From an uncultured Caulobacterales bacterium (GTDB lineage: Bacteria > Pseudomonadota > Alphaproteobacteria > Caulobacterales > Caulobacteraceae): 64,000 bases of DNA. Positions 5,925 through 63,139 of this stretch are shown in pieces; position 1 is the stretch's first letter; the number at the start of each line of letters is the position of its first letter. Both the position numbers and the translations under genes were made by a program. The stretch covers positions 32,533 through 96,532 of the forward strand of contig CAIOHT010000094.1 in NCBI GenBank assembly GCA_903858185.1, written 5' to 3'. The notes under the pieces are model-generated. The model did not search any database. It worked only from the letters and a program-made list of their open reading frames with translations, and was not told where the DNA came from.

Positions 5925-6050
5925 TGCGTCCTTCGACACCCGGATTAGTCCGAGGCCTGCTTCGCAGGCTGCCCAGGATGACGTAGACAGCGACGTCACA
6001 AGTTCTACGTCATGCCGAGCAGCGCCGCAGGCGCCTGTCGAGGCACGCAA
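5925..6050. repeat. Palindromic repeat, TTCGAGACG family (diverged copy)
   Basis: The space between rnj and mce carries TGCGTCCTTCGACACC on the left and, inverted, CTGTCGAGGCACGCA on the right, with CAGGATGACG and CGTCATGCCGAGCAG inside. This is the same pattern as the elements at 52059, 55413, 56570 and 57346 but more diverged. An internal hairpin CAGCCTGCGAAGCAGG (read on the minus strand) is also visible. No ORF with gene-like composition lies here. Confidence 0.7.
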
Positions 6051-14901: not shown

Positions 14902-14973
14902 GAAGGTTTCCGCCCGGAGCTCCAATTCCATCAAGGCCTTCAGGGCGTATCAGCATCCGGATAAGCTCTGGTC

Positions 14974-15077
14974 CGTTTTCCCGGCGAAGGCCGGGATCCA
15001 GATCCAGCCGCGCGATTGGCGTCTGGATCCACGATGGCGCTCTTTGATCTGGGCCCCGGCCTTCGCCGGGGAGGCGG
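14974..15077. repeat. Paired inverted repeat, CCCGGC-GAAG-GCCGGG family (copy 1)
   Basis: Left arm contains TTCCCGGCGAAGGCCGGGAT followed by CCAGATC; right arm, about 50 bases on, is its near reverse complement (GATCTGGGCCCCGG then CCTTCGCCGGGGA). A second copy is at 42244-42329. Confidence 0.88.
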
Positions 15078-15127
15078 ATTGGGGGGGAGTATCCGCCGTT
15101 CCGACGCTCCCGAAACCGCACCCCCGC

Positions 15128-31633: not shown

Positions 31634-31719
31634 GGGGACATGTACCGCAGGTACGTGTCCCCTGATCCAACCGCCGTCGTGCCTCGATTAGGGGACGCGT
31701 ACCTGCGGTAAATGTCCCC
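31634..31719. repeat. Convergent-junction palindromic element, copy 1
   Basis: Two 29-bp units in inverted orientation (31634-31662 and 31691-31719). Each unit is a hairpin opening GGGGACATGTACC and closing GGTACGTGTCCCC or its equivalent. It occupies nearly all of the 94-base gap between two convergent genes. The right unit is the most diverged (GGGGACGCG..., ...GGTAAATGTCCCC). Confidence 0.95.
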
Positions 31720-31724
31720 TGCGC

Positions 31725-32030
31725 CTACTTCAGCAGCTTCTGGCCTTCATCCTTCAGGCGCCCGCCGATCTTGCCGGCGAGCAGGCCGAGGATGCCGGGC
31801 AGGACGATCTCCATCCGGACCGCGTCGGCCATCACCTCCAGGGCGCCGGTGATGCTCTGGCCGCTGATCTGCGCGTCGAAAATGAGCCGGTCGCCGTCCC
31901 AGCGCTGGTCGATCTTCGCCGCGCCGCCGGGCAGCTTTGAGGTCATCTCCGCCAGACCGGTCTCGAGCCGGCGGCGGGCCTCGGCGATGCCGAGTTGGTG
32001 GGGAATGGAGACGGTGAGGGGCTTGGCCAT
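31725..32030 (-). CDS. Polyhydroxyalkanoic acid system family protein (PHA_gran_rgn type)
   Basis: A 101-residue protein resembling the small family found near polyhydroxyalkanoate granule genes. It starts MAKPLTVSIPHQLGIAEARR, which matches the family pattern (short strand, then an 'LGxxEAxxR' helix), has a central WDGDRLIFDAQISGQSITG sheet and ends LAGKIGGRLKDEGQKLLK. The function is not established; it may bind lipids or granules. No pha genes are visible in this window. It is transcribed divergently from the TraB/GumN gene. Confidence 0.8.
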   Translation of the reverse strand: MAKPLTVSIPHQLGIAEARRRLETGLAEMTSKLPGGAAKIDQRWDGDRLIFDAQISGQSITGALEVMADAVRMEIVLPGILGLLAGKIGGRLKDEGQKLLK

Positions 32031-33090: not shown

Positions 33091-33175
33091 GGGGACATGT
33101 ACCGCAGGTGCCTGTCCCCCAAACGAGCCTTTGCTGAGTGGGACTAGGGGACACGTACCTTCGGTACATGTCCCC
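33091..33175. repeat. Convergent-junction palindromic element, copy 2
   Basis: Units at 33091-33119 and 33147-33175 in inverted orientation; the left one opens GGGGACATGTACCGCAGG and the right GGGGACACGTACCTTCGG. Fills the 92-base gap between the TraB/GumN gene and gltA, which converge here. Confidence 0.95.
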
Positions 33176-33181
33176 GGCGGC

Positions 33182-34462
<1,281 letters not shown>

Positions 34463-42152: not shown

Positions 42153-42243
42153 GGCGCGGTTGTTCTAGAGCCATTCCCCCTATCCGTCATCGACGGACTT
42201 GTTCCGACGGTCCCTGCAGGGTGATGGGCAGGGGATGAAAAAC

Positions 42244-42329
42244 CGTATTCCCGGCGAAGGCCGGGATCCAGATGAAGCCCCCTCAGCATCCCGACTGAAT
42301 CTGGACCCCGGCCTTCGCCGGGGAAACGG
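42244..42329. repeat. Paired inverted repeat, CCCGGC-GAAG-GCCGGG family (copy 2)
   Basis: Arms at 42244-42273 and 42300-42329 are near reverse complements, with TTCCCGGCGAAGGCCGGGAT in the left arm shared with the copy at 14974. It lies between trpE and trpG. Confidence 0.9.
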
Positions 42330-42381
42330 ACCTGGTGGAACTCAATTTGCGCCAAGGGGCGGCGCGATCCATCTTACCGAC

Positions 42382-47001: not shown

Positions 47002-47080
47002 GGGGACATGTACCTCTGGTACGTGTCCCCTAAACCGGGGCCGCTCGAGTGGGGGACACGTACCTGCGGTACATGTCCCC
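47002..47080. repeat. Convergent-junction palindromic element, copy 3
   Basis: Inverted units at 47002-47030 and 47052-47080. The left loop reads CTCTGG instead of CGCAGG; the right unit is the exact reverse complement of the left unit of copies 1 and 4. Fills the 85-base gap between convergent tpiA and the acetyltransferase gene. Confidence 0.95.
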
Positions 47081-47084
47081 TGGC

Positions 47085-47600
47085 TCAGAGCAACAGCCCC
47101 CAGAGCCGGCAATCCCGGCGCTCGCCGTCGCGGTCCACGTGGCCGCGGAGATAGCCTTCTTCCTCGAAGCCCAGCTTCCGGAGCAGGGCTTCCGACGCCA
47201 GGTTGCCGACGTGCGTCCGCGCCCACAGGCGTTTGAAGCCCAGCGTCGCGGCATGGCCCATAACCGCCTGCATCGCCTCGTAGCCGTAACCCAGGCCCCA
47301 GGCGTCCTTGCCGAGGATGAAGCCCACCTCTGCGCGGTGGTGACGCCAGTCGATGTCGGAAAGATCGACGCTGCCGAGGTAGCGCTGGTCGTCGTTCAGG
47401 CGCACCGACCAGTAGAAGGCCTGCTCATTGGCCATCTCGATCAGCTGGCCATGGATGAAGGCTTCGACCACGTCGGGATCGTCTATGGCGACGCTGTCCA
47501 TATGCGCCATGACCTCCGGATCGGCCATGATCGGATGGATCAGGAGGCCGTCGGCTTCGGTCACCGGGGTCAGTTTCAGGCGTTCGGTTTCCAGAATCAT
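47085..47600 (-). CDS. GNAT family N-acetyltransferase (RimJ/RimL type)
   Basis: 171 residues starting MILETERLKLTPVTEADGLL, the typical opening of RimJ/RimL-like acetyltransferases. The acetyl-CoA-binding region is WGLGYGYEAMQAVMGHAATL around residue 113 (motif Q/RxxGxG/A in degenerate form) and is followed by LWARTHVGNLASEALLRKLGF, the conserved N-x-x-S helix. The substrate is unknown: ribosomal protein N-termini, other proteins or small amines are all possible. Confidence 0.9.
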   Translation of the reverse strand: MILETERLKLTPVTEADGLLIHPIMADPEVMAHMDSVAIDDPDVVEAFIHGQLIEMANEQAFYWSVRLNDDQRYLGSVDLSDIDWRHHRAEVGFILGKDAWGLGYGYEAMQAVMGHAATLGFKRLWARTHVGNLASEALLRKLGFEEEGYLRGHVDRDGERRDCRLWGLLL

Positions 47601-51224: not shown

Positions 51225-51998
51225 TCAGCCCTGCGTGCGCGCCCGCGCCTGGATACCAGCCCGCCGCGCTTCCACCGCTTCGGGCGTGACCAGACGGTTG
51301 TTGGCGGTGGACGTCTTGTTCTCGAAGGTCATGCCGTCTTCAAACGAGAGCGCATAGCCGCCGTCGATGATCCGCTTGTAGGTGGTCAGGGTCTCGACCG
51401 GGATGGTGGCCATGTCCGCGGCCAGCTTTTTCGCCGTCGCCAGCAGATCGGCCGCCGGCACGACGCGGTTGACCAGACCCCACTCGCAGGCGGTCTTTGC
51501 ATCGAGGAAGTTGCCGGTCAGGCTCAGTTCCTTGGCCCGGTAGATGCCGATCAGCCGCGACAGCTTCTGCGACAGGCCCCAGCCCGGCATGATCCCGACG
51601 CGGGCGTGGGTGTCGGCGAAGCGGGCGTTCTCGGACGCGATCAGCACGTCGCAGGCCAGGGCCACCTCGAAGCCGCCGGTGATGGCCACGCCGTTGATCG
51701 CGCCGATCACCGGCTTGGTGCACAGCTCGATCGCCTTGACCGGGTTCTCGTCGGCGCCGTCGGCGTTGGCCGCGCTCATGGCCTTGGGATCGGAACCGAG
51801 CTCCTTCAGGTCCAGACCCGCCGTGAAAGCCCGCTCGCCCGCGCCGGTCAGGATCACCACGCTGACCTCCGGATCGGCGTCCAGCGCGGTCATGGCCTTG
51901 TAGAGTTCACTGCGCATCGCCTTGGACAGCGCGTTCATCGCCTCGGGGCGGTTCAGGGTGACGACGGCGATCCCGTCCGACTTTTCGACCAGCAGCAT
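51225..51998 (-). CDS. Crotonase (enoyl-CoA hydratase/isomerase) family protein
   Basis: 257 residues of the crotonase fold: ALNRPEAMNALSKAMRSEL-type opening, oxyanion-hole segments GERAFTAGLDLKEL and NGVAITGGFEVALACD. At the first catalytic position, where hydratases have a Glu (PEI...), this protein reads FADTHARVGIMPGWGLSQKL, so that Glu is His; the second (AKELSLTG) is kept. It may therefore catalyse another crotonase reaction or only hydration of a special substrate. Start ATG 51998. It is divergent from eno, with a palindromic repeat between. Confidence 0.9.
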   Translation of the reverse strand: MLLVEKSDGIAVVTLNRPEAMNALSKAMRSELYKAMTALDADPEVSVVILTGAGERAFTAGLDLKELGSDPKAMSAANADGADENPVKAIELCTKPVIGAINGVAITGGFEVALACDVLIASENARFADTHARVGIMPGWGLSQKLSRLIGIYRAKELSLTGNFLDAKTACEWGLVNRVVPAADLLATAKKLAADMATIPVETLTTYKRIIDGGYALSFEDGMTFENKTSTANNRLVTPEAVEARRAGIQARARTQG

Positions 51999-52058
51999 GG
52001 GGTGGGTCCTCTCTTTGCATCAGGGATGGCCGGGCGACGGAGGGGCAGTCAAGCGCGG

Positions 52059-53535
<1,477 letters not shown>

Positions 53536-53536
53536 G

Positions 53537-53690
53537 GCTTCCTCTCCGCAAAGCGGGGAGGGGGACCACGCAGAGCGTGGTGGAGAGGCGGCGGGGGACC
53601 CGGTGCCTGTCCGCTTTCTGACTCAACCGTCCGCCGTCGGCGCCGCCCCTCAGTCGGGCTCCGCCTGACATCTCCCCCCAGGTGGGGAGC
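53537..53690. repeat. Structured repeat between eno and ftsB
   Basis: Holds ACCACGC-AGA-GCGTGGT, CTCCGC...GCGGGGAG, TCAGTCGGGCTCCGCCTGA and CTCCCC-CCAGGT-GGGGAG hairpins across about 150 bases. Similar sequence is, from memory, a dispersed repeat in Caulobacteraceae genomes; only one copy is in this window. Confidence 0.65.
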
Positions 53691-53754
53691 ATTAGGGTGG
53701 GCTTAACCACGCCGGTCCCAAGGTGCGCTCGTATCGCCGCCCGGATTCGCCAGC

Positions 53755-54051
53755 GTGTTCCAACGCCTGCAGCCCCTTCTTCCGACCGTCGCCCTCTTCG
53801 GGCTGATCGTCTATTTCGTGTTCCACGGCCTGACCGGGGAGCGCGGGCTGCTGCGCGGATCGCAACGCCAGGCGCTGCTCGCGGAACGGAGCAGCGAACT
53901 GCAGGTTCTGCGCAGTCGGAGGCTGGACCTGGAGGCCCGGGCCCGGCTATTACGGGACGGCAGCCTGTCGGCGGACCTTCTTGAGGAACGAGCGCGTTCT
54001 CTTCTGGGATTCGCCGATCCGAAAGATTATGTGATCCGCACCAAGCCCTGA
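53755..54051 (+). CDS. ftsB: FtsB/DivIC family septum formation initiator
   Basis: 98 residues from GTG 53755. A single N-terminal membrane helix (TVALFGLIVYFVFHGLTG) is followed by a coiled coil (RQALLAERSSELQVLRSRRL and on to about residue 70) and a short tail LGFADPKDYVIRTKP, the FtsB layout. FtsB links FtsQ and FtsL to the septal synthases FtsW/FtsI. The position between eno and pdhA is that of the Caulobacter homologue as I recall it. Confidence 0.9.
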   Translation: MFQRLQPLLPTVALFGLIVYFVFHGLTGERGLLRGSQRQALLAERSSELQVLRSRRLDLEARARLLRDGSLSADLLEERARSLLGFADPKDYVIRTKP

Positions 54052-54128
54052 CCGGGGTGGATTTTTTCCGTTCCGGCGCTCAGCGAGGGACGAACCGGCC
54101 GCAATGAGACGATCCATGGGAGCAGGCA

Positions 54129-55169
54129 ATGGCGCGGGCGCGTAAAGCGGAAACTTCATCGGGCAAAGGCAATGACACCGGTGTCAAGACTGGTGCGAAG
54201 GGCGCTTCCAGGGCGCAGCTGCTGAAATACTACCGCGACATGCTGCTGATCCGCCGGTTCGAGGAACGGGCCGGCCAGCTGTACGGCATGGGTCTGATCG
54301 GCGGCTTCTGCCACCTCTATATCGGCCAGGAAGCGATCGCCGTCGGCATGGAAGCCATCCGCGTGGCTGGCGACCAGATCATCACCGGCTACCGCGACCA
54401 CGGCCACATGCTGGCCGCCGGCATGGATCCCAACGAGGTCATGGCCGAGCTGACCGGCCGCGCGGGCGGCTCGTCCAAGGGCAAGGGCGGGTCGATGCAC
54501 ATGTTCTCGACCGAAGCCGGCTTCTACGGCGGCCACGGCATCGTCGGGGCCCAGGTGAGCCTCGGCACCGGCCTGGCGCTGGCCGACAAGTACAAGAAGA
54601 ACGGCAACGTCAGCTTCACCTACTTCGGCGACGGCGCGGCCAACCAAGGCCAGGTCTACGAGAGTTTCAACATGGCGGAGCTGTGGAGCCTGCCGGTCGT
54701 CTATGTGGTTGAGAACAACCAGTACGCCATGGGCACCTCGATCGAGCGCTCCAGTTCCGAAACCCGCCTGCACAAGCGCGGGATTTCGTTCAACATTCCG
54801 GGTGAGGAAGTGGACGGCATGGACGTCGAGGCGGTGGCCGAGGCCGGCGCCCGCGCCGCCGAACACGCCCGCAGCGGCAAGGGCCCCTACATCCTCGAGA
54901 TGAAGACCTACCGCTACCGCGGCCACTCCATGAGCGACCCGGCCAAATACCGCACCAAGGAAGAGGTCGACGAGGTCAAGAAGACCCGTGATCCCATTGA
55001 ACATACACGGGAAAGGCTGGTCGCGCTCAAGGTCACGGACGAGGAATTCAAAGCCATCGACAGCGAGGTGAAGGTCATCGTCGCCGCCTCCGCCGAGTTC
55101 GCCCGCACCAGCCCCGAACCCGACCCGTCCGAGCTATACACCGACGTCTATCTGGAGGCCGCGCAGTGA
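54129..55169 (+). CDS. pdhA: Pyruvate dehydrogenase E1 alpha subunit
   Basis: Thiamine-diphosphate-dependent decarboxylation of pyruvate, with E1 beta. The 346-residue product begins with a lysine-rich low-complexity segment ([15 protein letters not shown]), then [20 protein letters not shown]. The ThDP motif is [19 protein letters not shown] (GDG...N), and the phosphorylation-loop region is [19 protein letters not shown]. It overlaps pdhB by four bases (GTGA). Confidence 0.97.
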
Positions 55170-56545
55170 GCGTCGAGATCCTCATGCCGGCCCTCTCCCC
55201 CACGATGGAGGAGGGCACCCTCGCCAAGTGGCACGTGAAAGAGGGCGATACGGTCAAGGCCGGCGATGTGATCGCCGAGATCGAGACCGACAAGGCGACT
55301 ATGGAGGTCGAGGCCGTCGACGAGGGCGTTATCGACGCGATCCTGGTGCCTGCCGGGACCGAGAACGTGAAGGTCAACACCCCGATCGCCCGGTTGGGGG
55401 AGGGCGAGGCCAGTGCGTCCTTCGAGACGCCGGCTGCGCCGGCTCCTCAGGATGACGTAGAGGGTAGCAAAATTGCTCGTCAGCCTGAGGAGGCCGCGCC
55501 AGCGGCCGTCTCGAAGGCCGCACCGAAACCCCTCAGCGACCCCGAAATCCCCGCCGGCACGAAGATGGTCCGCATCACCGTCCGCGACGCCCTGCGCGAC
55601 GCCATGGCCGAGGAGATGCGCCGCGACGGCGACGTGTTCCTGATGGGCGAGGAGGTCGCGCAGTACCAGGGCGCCTACAAGGTCTCCCGCGAGCTCCTGC
55701 AGGAGTTCGGCGACCAGCGGGTGATCGACACCCCGATCACCGAGCACGGCTTCGCGGGTCTCGGCGTCGGCGCCGCCATGGCGGGCCTCAAGCCCATCGT
55801 CGAGTTCATGACCTGGAACTTCGGCATGCAGGCTATCGACCAGATCATCAATTCCGCCGCCAAGACGCTCTACATGTCCGGCGGCCAGATCAAATCCTCG
55901 ATCGTGTTCCGCGGCCCCAACGGCGCGGCCAGCCGCGTCGGCGCCCAGCACAGCCAGGACTACAGCGCCTGGTACGCCCAGATCCCCGGCCTGAAGGTCA
56001 TCGCGCCCTACGACGCGGCCGACGCCAAGGGCCTGCTCAAGGCGGCGATCCGCGACCCGAACCCGATCGTCTTCCTCGAACACGAGATGATGTACGGCAT
56101 CGAGTTCGACATCCCCGATGTCGAGGACTGGGTCGTGCCGATCGGCAAGGCCAAGGTCCGCCGCGAGGGCAAGGACGTGACCATCACCGCCCACAGCCGC
56201 ATGGTCGGCCTGGCGCTGAAGGCCGCCGAGGAACTGGCCGCCGAGGGCATCGAGGCCGAGGTCATCGACCTGCGCACCCTGCGCCCGCTGGACCACGAGA
56301 CGATCCTGGAAAGCGTGCGCAAGACCAACCGCCTGGTCAGCGCCGAGGAAGGCTGGGGCCCGATGGGCGTCGGCGCCGAGATCGTCGCCCGGGTCGTCGA
56401 GCATGCTTTCGACTACCTCGACGCCCCGCCGCTGCGCGTCCACCAGGAAGACGTCCCGCTGCCTTACGCCGCCAACCTGGAAGCCCTGTCGCTGCCCGGT
56501 CCGGACAAGATCGTCCGGGCTGTGAAGGCGGTTTGCTACCGCTGA
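55166..56545 (+). CDS. pdhB: Pyruvate dehydrogenase E1 beta subunit with N-terminal lipoyl domain and repeat-derived linker
   Basis: 459 residues from GTG 55166. Residues 1-80 form a lipoyl domain ([20 protein letters not shown]; lipoyl lysine in ETDKATMEV near residue 43), as is usual in alphaproteobacterial E1 beta. Residues about 83-119 are encoded by a dispersed palindromic repeat and read [13 protein letters not shown]...[14 protein letters not shown], an Ala/Pro-rich linker. From about residue 125 the E1 beta catalytic part follows ([34 protein letters not shown]). The extra lipoyl domain would let E1 take part in acyl shuttling. Confidence 0.96.
55413..55523. repeat. TTCGAGACG-family palindromic element inside pdhB
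   Basis: 111 bases (37 codons), in frame. Left arm opens GTGCGTCCTTCGAGACGCCG and ends CTCAGGATGACG; right arm opens CGTCAGCCTGAGGAGGCCGC and ends CTCGAAGGCCGCAC, its near reverse complement. Begins 247 bases after the start codon. Confidence 0.92.
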
Positions 56546-56569
56546 TGGTTTCGCTGGCCCATCCGGACC

Positions 56570-56684
56570 TGCGTCCTTCGAGACGCGGCTGCGCCGCTCC
56601 TCAGGATGACGGGCAAGGGTGGGCCGCAACTCACTTCGTCATGGTGAGGAGCGAGGCATCAGCCGAGCGTCTCGAACCACGCAC
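56570..56684. repeat. TTCGAGACG-family palindromic element between pdhB and the GFA gene
   Basis: Left arm TGCGTCCTTCGAGACGCGGC with CTCCTCAGGATGACGG, right arm TCGTCATGGTGAGGAGCGAG ending GCGTCTCGAACCACGCAC. The left arm is almost the same as in the two coding copies. Confidence 0.93.
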
Positions 56685-56696
56685 GGGATATCAGCG

Positions 56697-57098
56697 ATGA
56701 CCGGCGCCACTCACACCCACACCGGCGGCTGCCACTGCGGCGCTGTCCGGTTCGAGGCGGACCTGCCGGCCGTGGTCGAGGCCCAGAGCTGCAACTGCTC
56801 GATGTGCGAGAAGGTCGGCTTCATCCACATCATCGTGCCGGAAAGCCGCTTCCGCCTGACCTCGGGCACGGACCAGATCACGACCTACACATTCAACACC
56901 GGCGTCGCGAAGCACACCTTCTGCAAGGTCTGCGGCGTGAAGAGCTTCTATCGGCCCAGGTCCAATCCGGACGGCTGGTCGGTGAACGCCCGCTGCCTCG
57001 ACACCACCGAGGGCCTCGATCTGCGCATCGAAGCCTTCGACGGCCAGAACTGGGAGGCCCACGCGGCCGCCCTGGCGCATCTCAGTAAGGAAGACTGA
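56697..57098 (+). CDS. GFA family protein (glutathione-dependent formaldehyde-activating enzyme-like)
   Basis: 133 residues from ATG 56697: HTGGCHCGAVRFEADLPAVV, SCNCSMCEKVGFIHIIVPES and HTFCKVCGVKSFYRPRSNPD give the zinc pattern CxC...CxxC...CxxC of the GFA/CENP-V fold. Family members are mostly of unknown activity; only a few act on S-hydroxymethylglutathione. It is inserted between pdhB and pdhC, with a palindromic repeat upstream, and its stop directly touches the pdhC ATG, so it is translated within the pdh operon. Confidence 0.9.
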   Translation: MTGATHTHTGGCHCGAVRFEADLPAVVEAQSCNCSMCEKVGFIHIIVPESRFRLTSGTDQITTYTFNTGVAKHTFCKVCGVKSFYRPRSNPDGWSVNARCLDTTEGLDLRIEAFDGQNWEAHAAALAHLSKED

Positions 57099-58415
57099 AT
57101 GTCCATCGAGATCCTCATGCCCGCCCTGTCTCCGACCATGGAGGAGGGGACCCTGGCGAAATGGCACGTGAAGGCCGGCGACACGGTGAAGGCGGGCGAC
57201 GTCATCGCCGAGATCGAGACCGACAAGGCGACCATGGAGGTCGAGGCCGTCGACGAGGGCGTGGTAGAGGCCCTGCTGGTCGACGCCGGGACCGAGAACG
57301 TCAAGGTCAACGCGGTGATCGCGCGGCTGGCCGGGGAGGGCGACAGTGCGTCCTTCGAGACGCCGGCTGCGCCGGCTCCTCAGGATGACGGGCAGGGGAG
57401 CCCCAAAACTATTCGTCAGCCTGAGGAGGCCGCCCCAGCGGCCGTCTCGAAGGCCGCACCGACAACACCGCTACCGGCGCCCAAGCTCAACGGCGCGGCC
57501 GGCGAGCGGGTGTTCGCCTCGCCCCTGGCCCGCCGCCTGGCGCAAGCGGCCGGCATCGACCTCAAATCCATCGCCGGCTCCGGCCCGCATGGCCGGGTGA
57601 TCAAGGCTGACGTCGACGCCGCGCGGGGCAAAGCCCCCGCCAGCACACCAGCATCCACCGGCGCCGCGCCCGCCTCCGCGCCCGCCCGTCAGGTCCAGTC
57701 GCTGGAACAGCAGGGCATCCCCGCCGGCAGTTACGACCTCGTCCCGCTCGACGGCATGCGCAAGACCATCGCCCGGCGGATGACTGACAGCTTCCGCGAC
57801 GTGCCGCACTTCCCGCTGACCATCGATCTGGAGATCGACGGCCTGCTGGCGGCGCGGGCGAAGATCAACGCCATGCTCGAGAAGGACGGCGTCAAGGTTT
57901 CGGTCAACGACCTGGTGATCAAGGCCGTGGCCGTGGCGCTCAAGCGCGTGCCCGAGGCCAACTCCAGCTACACGCCCGAGGGCATCGCCCTGCACCACCA
58001 CGCCGACATCGCCATGGCCGTTGCCATCGACGGCGGCTTGATCACCCCGATCATCCGCGCCGCCGAGACCAAGGGGCTGGCCCAGATCGCCGTCGAGGCC
58101 AAGGATCTCGCCGCCCGCGCCCGCGACAAGAAGCTCAAGCCCGAAGAGTTCCAGGGCGGCACCTTCTCGGTGTCGAACATGGGCATGATGGGCATCAAGT
58201 CCTTCGCCTCGATCATCAACGAGCCGCAGGCCTGCATCATGAGCGTCGGCGCCGGCGAGCCGCGGCCTGTCGTGAAGAACGGCGCCCTGGCCATCGCGAC
58301 GGTGATGACCGTGACCCTGACCTGCGACCACCGCGCGGTCGACGGCGCCATCGGCGGCCGTTTCCTCAGCGTCTTCAAGGCGCTGATCGAAGATCCCCTG
58401 ACGATGATCGTTTGA
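57099..58415 (+). CDS. pdhC: Pyruvate dehydrogenase E2, dihydrolipoamide acetyltransferase, with repeat-derived linker
   Basis: 438 residues; core of the complex, transferring acetyl groups from lipoamide to CoA. Residues 1-80 are a single lipoyl domain (lipoyl Lys in ETDKATMEV), residues about 83-121 are encoded by the same palindromic element as in pdhB, residues about 145-180 form the E1/E3-binding domain ([20 protein letters not shown]), and the catalytic domain starts near residue 205 and ends with the active site [13 protein letters not shown] (His and Asp). ATG abuts the GFA stop. Confidence 0.96.
57346..57459. repeat. TTCGAGACG-family palindromic element inside pdhC
   Basis: 114 bases (38 codons), in frame, starting exactly 247 bases after the start codon as in pdhB. 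The left arm (45 bases) is identical to the pdhB copy and the right arm differs by one base, while the spacer between them is unrelated in sequence. Confidence 0.92.
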
Positions 58416-59832: not shown

Positions 59833-59913
59833 GGGGACATGTACCGCAGGTACGTGTCCCCCAATCGAGCGGCTACGGGGTTTAGGGGACACGTACCTTC
59901 GGTACATGTCCCC
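59833..59913. repeat. Convergent-junction palindromic element, copy 4
   Basis: Inverted units at 59833-59861 and 59885-59913; the left unit is identical to that of copy 1 and the right to that of copy 2. Fills the 95-base gap between convergent lpdA and the DoxX gene. Confidence 0.95.
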
Positions 59914-59921
59914 GGCAGTGG

Positions 59922-60266
59922 CTACTTCTTCCGCATGCCATCCACGCTCCACGCCCCCGGTCCCGCGCAGGCGAGGAACAGGAAGATGAAGCAGAACAGC
60001 AGGGCCGGCTCGCCCCCGTTGAGGGCCGGGTAGGGGCCCTTGGCGCCGTGGACCATCCAGTAGGCCACGGCCATCATCCCTGAGAGGACGAAGGCGGTCG
60101 GGCGGGTGAGCAGGCCGAGGATCAGCAGCGCCGCGCCGACGATCTCCAGCCAGCCGGCGGCCAGCATGATCGGCGGCAGCGGGCCGTCCATGGCCGCGGC
60201 CGGGAACTGGAAGATCTTCATCAACCCGTGTTGCAGGAAGGCCAACCCCGCGACAATGCGCAGCAA
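59922..60266 (-). CDS. DoxX family membrane protein
   Basis: From the first standard start (TTG at 60266) 114 residues: LRIVAGLAFLQHGLMKIFQF, four membrane helices and a conserved EIVGAALLILGLLTRPTAFV. The family is of unclear function, with links to thiosulfate/quinone redox and oxidative stress. Frame and similarity extend upstream without an ATG, GTG or TTG: residues IERLSGYAPQAQAL precede, and a good ribosome site (GGGGAGGA on the minus strand near 60314-60321) is spaced 8 bases from an ATC codon at 60303-60305. The real start may thus be non-standard and about 13 codons longer. Confidence 0.82.
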   Translation of the reverse strand: MLRIVAGLAFLQHGLMKIFQFPAAAMDGPLPPIMLAAGWLEIVGAALLILGLLTRPTAFVLSGMMAVAYWMVHGAKGPYPALNGGEPALLFCFIFLFLACAGPGAWSVDGMRKK

Positions 60267-61972: not shown

Positions 61973-63022
61973 TTACAGTCCGTGATCCGGCGGGCGTGTG
62001 ATCAGGATCGGCCGGGAGCCGGCGCGGACGCGTACGAAGCTGTCGACAGCGGCGAGCCAGGGTACGCGCACCGTGTCCCGCTCGAGGTGCAGGGCGTGAC
62101 CCCCTGTGGTCAGGCCGTAGGGCCTGCATTTCGCCATCGCCTTGCAGATGCGCGTCTGGACGGCGCCGTCGGCGACCCGGTCCGCACCGCCGGTGAGCAT
62201 CAGGGTCGGGGTCTCGAGGGTCGCGAGCCCGGGCTCAATGGCCTTCGACGCCGCGCGGAAGCCGGCCAGCCATCCCAGGCTTGGCCCGCCCATGCGCAGA
62301 TCCGGATTGGCGGTCTGCCAGGCCTTGCCCACCGCGCCGCGCCAGACGTCGCCGGTCAGACGCTGCGCCCGGGCGTCCGGCCCCTCGCGCGACCAGCCAG
62401 TGTTCATCGCGGCGGGCAGGCGGCCCAGGCCCGCACGGACCAGCGCCGCCTTGCCGCTGTCGACCGGGTCGGCCCCGGCGAACGACGGCGCCGACAGGAT
62501 CAGCCCCTCGGCCGGCGCGCCCTGTTCGACGGCTGCGATCGCGACCAGGCCACCGTCGGCATGGCCAAGAATGATGATCGGGGCTCCGGGCGCGCTGGCG
62601 ATCATCATCCGCGCCAGGGTTTTCACGGCCCGGATGTCGGTCCTGAAGTCCGGAACGTGGCCCAGGTCGCGGGGCAGGACGTAGCGCTCCGAGCCGCCCT
62701 GGCCCGCGCGTTCCAGGACCCAGACACTGTAGCCGCGCGCGTTGAGGTCACGCGCCGTCTCGAACCAGACTTCAGCAGATTCGCCGTAGCCGGTGAGGAT
62801 CAGCACCTGTGCCTGGGGCGTGATCGGGGTCGAGGACACGCCATACCGCTGCGCCGGGGCGTCGCCGATCTTCAGCAGGCCCCAGGCCCAGCCCTCCGGC
62901 GCCCAGAAGCGCGGCGACAGGGCCGGCGGAATGCGGCTCTCGACAAACGCGCCGCCGGCATCCCCGCCGCCACAGGCCGCGAGCAGGAACAGGAGGCCGG
63001 CGAGGAGGGAACGGGCGAGCAT
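61973..63022 (-). CDS. Lipoprotein of the alpha/beta hydrolase fold with altered nucleophile
   Basis: 349 residues from ATG 63022; the ORF runs on to 63124 through a repeat, which I reject. [20 protein letters not shown] is a lipoprotein signal (LAAC, Cys17). The fold resembles monoglyceride lipases/lysophospholipases: [53 protein letters not shown], and a late [10 protein letters not shown] and [10 protein letters not shown] (Asp and His). The nucleophile elbow GHSxG reads GHADG, so the expected catalytic Ser is Ala. It may be non-catalytic or use another residue. Confidence 0.82.
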
Positions 63023-63083
63023 CGATGGCGAGTGTCGTGGCCTTGGCGGGCGCTCGCAAGAGTGTGCACGCGGCGGGAGGTTG

Positions 63084-63139
63084 GGTGGTTCGAGACGCTC
63101 GCCTGAGGAGCCCCGAAGCGGCATCTCGAAGGCCGCACC
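63084..63139. repeat. TTCGAGACG-family palindromic element, compact copy upstream of lipA
   Basis: GGTGGTTCGAGACGCTCG ... GCATCTCGAAGGCCGCACC with CCTGAGGAG inside; a shortened version with little spacer, between the divergent hydrolase gene and lipA. Confidence 0.8.

Follow-up and report, generated by a model that had tools for sequence, protein, structure and literature searches.

Introduction

When a palindromic repeat that is scattered through a bacterial genome also encodes part of a protein, does the coding copy follow the protein or the repeat family? The question is raised by a stretch of 64,000 nucleotides from an uncultured Caulobacterales bacterium (contig CAIOHT010000094.1; the whole stretch is called the window here), in which two genes of the pyruvate dehydrogenase (PDH) complex, pdhB and pdhC, carry the same palindromic element in frame. 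An earlier reading of this DNA, which we call the original prediction, held that a dispersed palindrome had been taken up as protein, comparable in principle to the Rickettsia palindromic elements. Our comparison supports this view, since relatives lack the element or carry another. It also brought out three things that the prediction had not anticipated: a linker that hardly lengthened, other palindromes in the corresponding linkers of other genomes, and coding copies in step with the dispersed family. We favor a single explanation, to which we give a probability of roughly 0.7: capture of the element by a PDH linker, copying from pdhB to pdhC, and genome-wide homogenization of the repeat that includes the coding copies.

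Results

The element encodes the lipoyl-domain linkers of PdhB and PdhC

Pfam searches confirmed the domain architecture of both proteins. PdhB has a Biotin_lipoyl domain at residues 4 to 77, followed by the E1 beta domains Transket_pyr (137 to 310) and Transketolase_C (327 to 449); alphaproteobacterial E1 beta subunits usually have a lipoyl domain. PdhC has Biotin_lipoyl at residues 4 to 77, E3_binding at 138 to 172, and the catalytic 2-oxoacid_dh domain at 212 to 437. The element, with the ends TGCGTCC...GGCCGCA, is 109 bp long in pdhB and 112 bp in pdhC, lies in frame in both, and supplies 37 to 38 codons (Table 1). It is a double palindrome of ~110 bp, composed of two units of ~44 bp, the right one inverted relative to the left; in the pdh copies, 20 or 23 spacer bases separate them.

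As originally predicted, the two elements start at an equal offset from the start codon and their arms are nearly identical: the left arms do not differ and the right arms differ once, giving 1 of the 90 arm bases compared. The 247 bases before the elements are indeed far more diverged than the arms, with 48 ungapped mismatches where ~40 had been counted. That the spacers are unrelated is doubtful. In the genome of the window (G000; 3.49 Mb, 179 contigs, estimated completeness 100), they are no more alike than shuffled sequences (260 of 2,000 score as high); in the sister genome G025, the pdhB and pdhC spacers have CCAAAACTGTT/CCAAAACTATT in common (7 of 2,000 shuffles score as high), and because of this likeness the spacers look homologous but diverged. 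Folded as single-stranded DNA, the pdhB and pdhC copies gave z scores against shuffles of -9.1 and -8.6, and an intergenic copy at 56570 gave -5.2.

The same family is dispersed through the genome

Two core motifs, with up to 2 mismatches allowed, were counted 11 and 10 times in the window, where 0.57 and 0.39 occurrences would be expected, and none of 100 shuffles scored as high. Over the whole of G000, one arm pattern gave 57 strict matches (0 for the reversed control), and the core pattern GAGGAGS..SCGTCTCGAA gave 118 exact units (1 for the control). A similarity search returned 55 rows, 15 of which repeat a place on the other strand, so that at least 40 distinct places are represented, the pdh copies not among them; this is a lower bound because 40 of 85 candidates were scored. 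From 60 overlapping G000 loci, 46 full-length elements of 98 to 121 bp were extracted, the two pdh copies included, and the element has the terminal inverted repeats TGCGT..TTCGAGACG and CGTCTCGAA..ACGCA. Dispersed elements are mostly not open, with 7 to 12 of 44 stop-free in any one frame.

Coding copies in G000 were surveyed in part: 11 of the 60 overlapping loci were inspected, and 10 of 12 reading frames were given to Pfam. Three of these 10 frames (L008, L016, and L019) had a Pfam match, with the element at the N- or C-terminal edge, and 7 had none; no clear internal coding copy besides the pdh genes was seen in this partial survey. At L008 (1065 to 1184), the C-terminal ~40 residues of a protein of the tetrapyrrole methylase family (PF00590 at residues 27 to 238 of 301) seem to be encoded by a copy of the element.

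Relatives lack the element or carry another

Linkers were read from 61 genomes of the genus, which did not in every case yield both pdhB and pdhC, and from a set of 80 loci, by reading rules that missed some. Palindromes in pdh linkers were assigned to six genomes of the genus. G000 and G025 carry the same element in both genes, and G052 has a decayed element in both. G027 has the element in pdhB only; its pdhC linker is ordinary and much like that of the outgroup G051, which has ordinary Ala/Pro linkers in both genes. G028 has the element in pdhB and a GGGGGAGG-type palindrome in pdhC, and G024 has the GGGGGAGG-type palindrome in both. Searches for the latter type found it 11 times in G024, including three matches in pdh genes, once in G028, and in neither G000 nor G051. 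G024 also has a second pdhC-like sequence (L200; G024:C3:91036-92422) with nearly the same linker palindrome, which may reflect duplication or contamination (estimated at 4%). The other genus members read have different linkers (50 pdhB and 48 pdhC linkers without a palindrome). A tree of E1 beta from 23 genomes gave (G027,((G000,G025),(G052,(G028,G024)))), with support of 99/98 for the six genomes, 100/99 for the five without G027, and 88/81 for G000 with G025.

An ancestral linker, whose likeness to the repeat is due to chance or to ordinary protein-level conservation of an Ala/Pro-rich arm, would agree with the Ala/Pro-rich linkers of many relatives. The core-motif matches, however, are far above shuffles, the folding scores of both coding copies are extreme, the identity reaches synonymous sites, and G051 and the other genus members read, besides the six, carry other linkers. 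The original prediction had set against itself the case of one linker common to all relatives and no noncoding copies; what is found is that relatives differ and noncoding copies abound. Comparison with relatives refutes the ancestral linker, and the probability left to it is close to nil.

The linker lengths suggest what became of the old sequence. Linker stretches with a palindrome are 57 to 70 residues long in PdhB (n = 6) and 52 to 69 in PdhC (n = 5); those without have medians of 52.5 (n = 50; range, 46 to 71) and 53 (n = 48; range, 43 to 66), respectively. Because the linker is barely longer although the element adds 37 to 38 codons, we infer that most of the old Ala/Pro linker was replaced, being lost at capture or later.

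One pdh copy probably derives from the other

The pdh elements have a private right arm, CGTCAGCC...GGCCGCA, in place of which dispersed copies mostly have CGTCATCC or CGTCATGG...GGACGCA or CCACGCA. It is common to pdhB of G000, G025, and G027 and to pdhC of G000 and G025, occurs in part in G052, and is found in none of the other 44 full-length G000 elements. Because this arm is shared, copying between pdhB and pdhC is favored, and one copy probably derives from the other. The transfer would have used lipoyl-domain homology on one side. Conversion of the whole 5' region, with homogenized lipoyl domains, was considered and rejected, as the own pdhB-pdhC pair matched best in 4 of 52 genomes.

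Independent insertion, shared duplication, and gene conversion had all been left open originally. Two separate insertions of the same family at the same position in the two linkers would suit a receptive site, and the site does appear receptive, for the same linkers elsewhere bear other palindromes and the two linkers of G028 bear different ones. In 8 of 12 palindrome-bearing genomes, moreover, the own pdhB-pdhC pair is not the best match, and several have a palindrome in one gene only. Against this stand the single difference between the G000 arms and the private right arm; in L061, L066, L100, and L119 the own pdhB and pdhC linkers also match each other best, and in L062 and L094 a copy from one other genome alone ranks higher. 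The test of linker likeness was mixed overall (4 of 12 palindrome-bearing genomes and 5 of 79 others had their own pair as the best match). With the private right arm shared and the G027 pdhC linker ordinary, independent insertion is the least likely of the three routes, and we regard it as improbable.

Coding copies appear to track the repeat family

The core of the element occurs in three types, A (GTCTCG), A' (GTCGCG), and B (GAGCAG..GTGTCG). Exact-unit searches for the old and the new core covered 23 of the 61 genus genomes. G027 is distinguished by a change of one core base, GTCTCGAA to GTCGCGAA, with 127 exact new units and 2 old ones, against 0 new and 118 old in G000. When 100 units each from G000 and G027 were reduced to a core consensus, the two differed at that one column among 34, the variable last column aside; about half of the 34 columns were fixed in advance by the pattern used for the search. 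Exact A/A'/B units number 118/0/0 in G000, 136/1/21 in G025, 2/127/116 in G027, 88/0/98 in G028, and 11/1/96 in G052, and the coding copies of these five genomes are of type A, A, A', B, and decayed B, respectively. Type B was counted in eight genomes, the other three being G024 (36 units), G051 (5), and G009 (0). The GAGCAG/GTGTCG subfamily, with 96 to 116 units in G052, G028, and G027 against 0 in G000 and 21 in G025, has undergone large loss, gain, or conversion among close relatives.

The coding copy of G027 has changed with its family. Comparison of pdhB between G000 and G027 shows 2 differences in the 90 arm bases and 29 in the 210 bases of the lipoyl domain (P = 0.003 for the 87 in-frame arm bases); at fourfold sites the counts are 0 of 19 for the arms and 55 of 204 for the lipoyl and catalytic regions together (P = 0.005). 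Both arm differences are the diagnostic core base, one per arm, and the chance that two random changes on 90 sites would hit both diagnostic sites with the right base is ~3 in 100,000, by a post hoc calculation. The change in the element costs PdhB two amino acid changes, E to A and S to A.

Shared positions were compared between 55 G027 loci and 70 overlapping G000 loci together with 25 loci of five other genomes. Each place being counted once, flanks were shared on both sides with a relative for 17 G027 elements (15 of them with G000), and all 17 are new-type in G027 and old-type in the relative. Among 15 of these 17, at least three (L283/L335, L291/L040, and L295/L048) keep the loop stem and have a different core base, and in others the loop differs too; because the loop stem is kept in these three or more, the core switch can be narrower than one unit. 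In the better-preserved genomes, coding-copy arms diverge less than neighboring coding DNA, and their diagnostic bases match a type abundant in the same genome.

The G027 change could also reflect genome-wide avoidance of the restriction site CGTCTC, acting separately on coding and noncoding copies. This site does lie in the changed core, and in a small sample outside elements it occurs 3 times in 18 kb of G027 against 8 to 12 times in ~19 kb of four relatives. A larger sample also gave a somewhat lower rate in G027, but with 113 sites in 200 kb against 144 in 199 kb of G000 there is no elimination, yet 127 of 129 repeat units changed. Avoidance is not borne out as the cause of the switch and appears very improbable. 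A longer recognition motif would be, in effect, a trans-acting version of the explanation we favor.

Selection on structure is a more serious competitor. If the element were kept for an RNA hairpin, which slowed ribosomes at the domain boundary or protected the pdh mRNA, selection for this structure alone might conserve the arms. The very stable fold and the conservation of fourfold sites fit this, and, by reading the sequences, changes between private and canonical arms look paired. A hairpin alone does not account for the difference at one and the same base across some 60 G027 copies; the G052 copies are decayed, and most genus members read have no element. We consider this explanation unlikely, though less so than site avoidance or independent insertion.

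Several points weigh against homogenization of the coding copies. Two or three independent events make up their tracking: the change from A to A' in G027, that from A to B on the side of G052 and G028, and pdhC of G052. G027 also has 116 B units and G028 has 88 A and 98 B, so that the coding copy matches one of two abundant types. The G052 arms are no better conserved than their surroundings (13 of 87 versus 24 of 210; P = 0.44), and the G000-G025 comparison is not significant at fourfold sites alone (0 of 20 versus 32 of 212; P = 0.085). The private right-arm bases have not been overwritten by the dispersed consensus, and long conversion tracts are disfavored for this reason. Fifty of the 55 G027 loci were selected with an A' pattern and many of the relatives' loci with patterns of type A, a bias limited by the exact-unit counts (2 A in G027 and 0 A' in G000). 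Some of the 17 shared positions may be separate insertions. The homogenizing factor is putative, and expression of the linker is predicted.

PDH linkers elsewhere in Alphaproteobacteria carry palindromes

The folding of 222 linkers (227 before removal of duplicates and of a second G024 copy) was compared with that of codon shuffles. Twenty-six folded better than their shuffles by at least 2.5 standard deviations, and none was worse by as much. Five of the six clade genomes account for nine of the 26, the decayed linkers of G052 lying below the threshold; the remaining 17 are in 14 other genomes. Palindromes were traced in 3 of these 14, with 83 (L100), 44 (L119), and 26 (L106) matches in their own genomes, counted as rows on both strands. 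For each of the three, the top match other than the query lies at the linker of the other pdh gene. Palindrome capture by PDH linkers thus appears to recur in other Alphaproteobacteria.

Other features of the window

Around the element, the genes run in the order pdhA, pdhB, a GFA-family gene, pdhC, and a dihydrolipoamide-dehydrogenase-like gene. Of the further copies of the element that had been predicted in the window, those at 5925 and 63084 are present but degraded. G028 has a copy 91% identical to the one at 56570, likewise just downstream of its pdhB.

Table 1. Coordinates of the element, its host genes, and related features in the window
Feature	Positions	Strand	Description
pdhB	55166..56545	+	Pyruvate dehydrogenase E1 beta with N-terminal lipoyl domain (Pfam); the element is the linker
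Element in pdhB	55414..55522	+	Left arm 55414-55457, spacer 55458-55477, right arm 55478-55522
pdhC	57099..58415	+	Dihydrolipoyl acetyltransferase (E2) (Pfam); the element is the first linker
Element in pdhC	57347..57458	+	Left arm 57347-57390, spacer 57391-57413, right arm 57414-57458
Intact intergenic copy, same family	56570..56683	+	Downstream of pdhB
Intergenic copy	52056..52175	-	Upstream of enolase gene; G000:C94:84588-84707
Degraded copy	5925..5987	+	Copy of the element
Degraded copy	63084..63139	-	Near start of reading frame 61973-63124, minus strand
GFA-family gene	56619-57098		PF04828; between pdhB and pdhC

Two other palindromes are found in the window. A second family (GGGGACATGTACC..GGTACGTGTCCCC) has eight copies in four pairs, at 31634-31731, 33091-33187, 47002-47092, and 59833-59925. 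A third (TTCCCGGCGAAGGCCGGGATCCAGAT), which we take to be a shape common in Alphaproteobacteria, forms pairs at 14970-15078 and 42243-42330.

Discussion

The simplest history has capture in pdhB before the split of G027, a later copy in pdhC, and replacement in G024 and G028. A double palindrome resembling repetitive extragenic palindromes (REPs) or miniature inverted-repeat transposable elements (MITEs) would have been captured in the pdhB lipoyl linker in the ancestor of the six-species clade. After G027 had split off, the pdhC linker would have gained a copy, most likely from pdhB across the shared lipoyl-domain DNA, and later another palindrome would have replaced the element in both genes of G024 and in pdhC of G028. 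PDH lipoyl linkers are disordered and tolerant of sequence, and the insert may therefore work as an ordinary swinging arm. A genome-wide homogenizing process would have acted on the core of the repeat, coding copies included, either through very short conversion tracts between copies or through a trans-acting factor that binds or cuts DNA or RNA and whose preference changed in G027. It is a tentative further suggestion, to which we give somewhat less than even odds, that a sequence-specific system enforces the palindrome core across the genome and, when its preference changes, rewrites copies in place, protein-coding ones too; the repeat family, rather than protein-level selection, would then dictate part of the linker sequence.

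Intragenic palindromes have precedents. The Rickettsia palindromic elements, as described in PMC10969869, are palindromic repeats of ~150 bp found between genes and in frame inside genes, and the element resembles them in having both intergenic and in-frame intragenic copies. It differs in belonging to another genus, in lying in PDH lipoyl linkers, often in both genes of one genome, and in hardly lengthening the linker. A dispersed Caulobacter repeat is named in the same source and reported there as strictly intergenic. GTAG/CGTC-tagged REPs, according to the main text of PMC3733652, are high-copy and mostly intergenic, often form pairs in opposite orientation, are common in Alphaproteobacteria, and sometimes lie inside open reading frames; insertion in flexible linkers is named there as possibly neutral. 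The CGTC superfamily has a palindromic unit of 20 to 40 bp with a CGTC tag and a stem of 8 to 9 bp (PMC3733652, main text). Units of the present element also begin with CGTC, but they are ~44 bp, with an imperfect and longer stem. Many copies and inverted pairs are REP-like features, the intergenic share having been sampled only through the frames given to Pfam (a match in 3 of 10), and the terminal inverted repeats are MITE-like. The main text of PMC3733652 contains no mention of Caulobacter, pyruvate, dehydrogenase, or lipoyl.

Rfam, searched over 51900 to 57700 with E up to 1, gave no match on it and one unrelated sub-threshold match at 52371-52417. The RAYT Y1 transposase (PF01797) had 0 matches in G000, and the same search was positive in 5 of 14 named genomes, including Caulobacter vibrioides. 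In the literature searched, which left subscription papers mostly outside, we saw no account of a PDH linker with a palindrome, nor of a coding copy that follows a repeat family or a genome-wide base switch. Within that literature, the PDH-linker target and the tracking are new; the cause of the tracking is our interpretation.

Here a DNA repeat would have become a functional part of an enzyme of central metabolism, and this in several lineages and at a single favored kind of site. Since the same genome holds dozens of noncoding copies against which a coding copy can be set, the locus makes it a testable question whether bacterial palindromic repeats are passive debris or are actively maintained in uniform sequence. 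The concordant difference at one base in intergenic copies and in a protein gene points to active maintenance.

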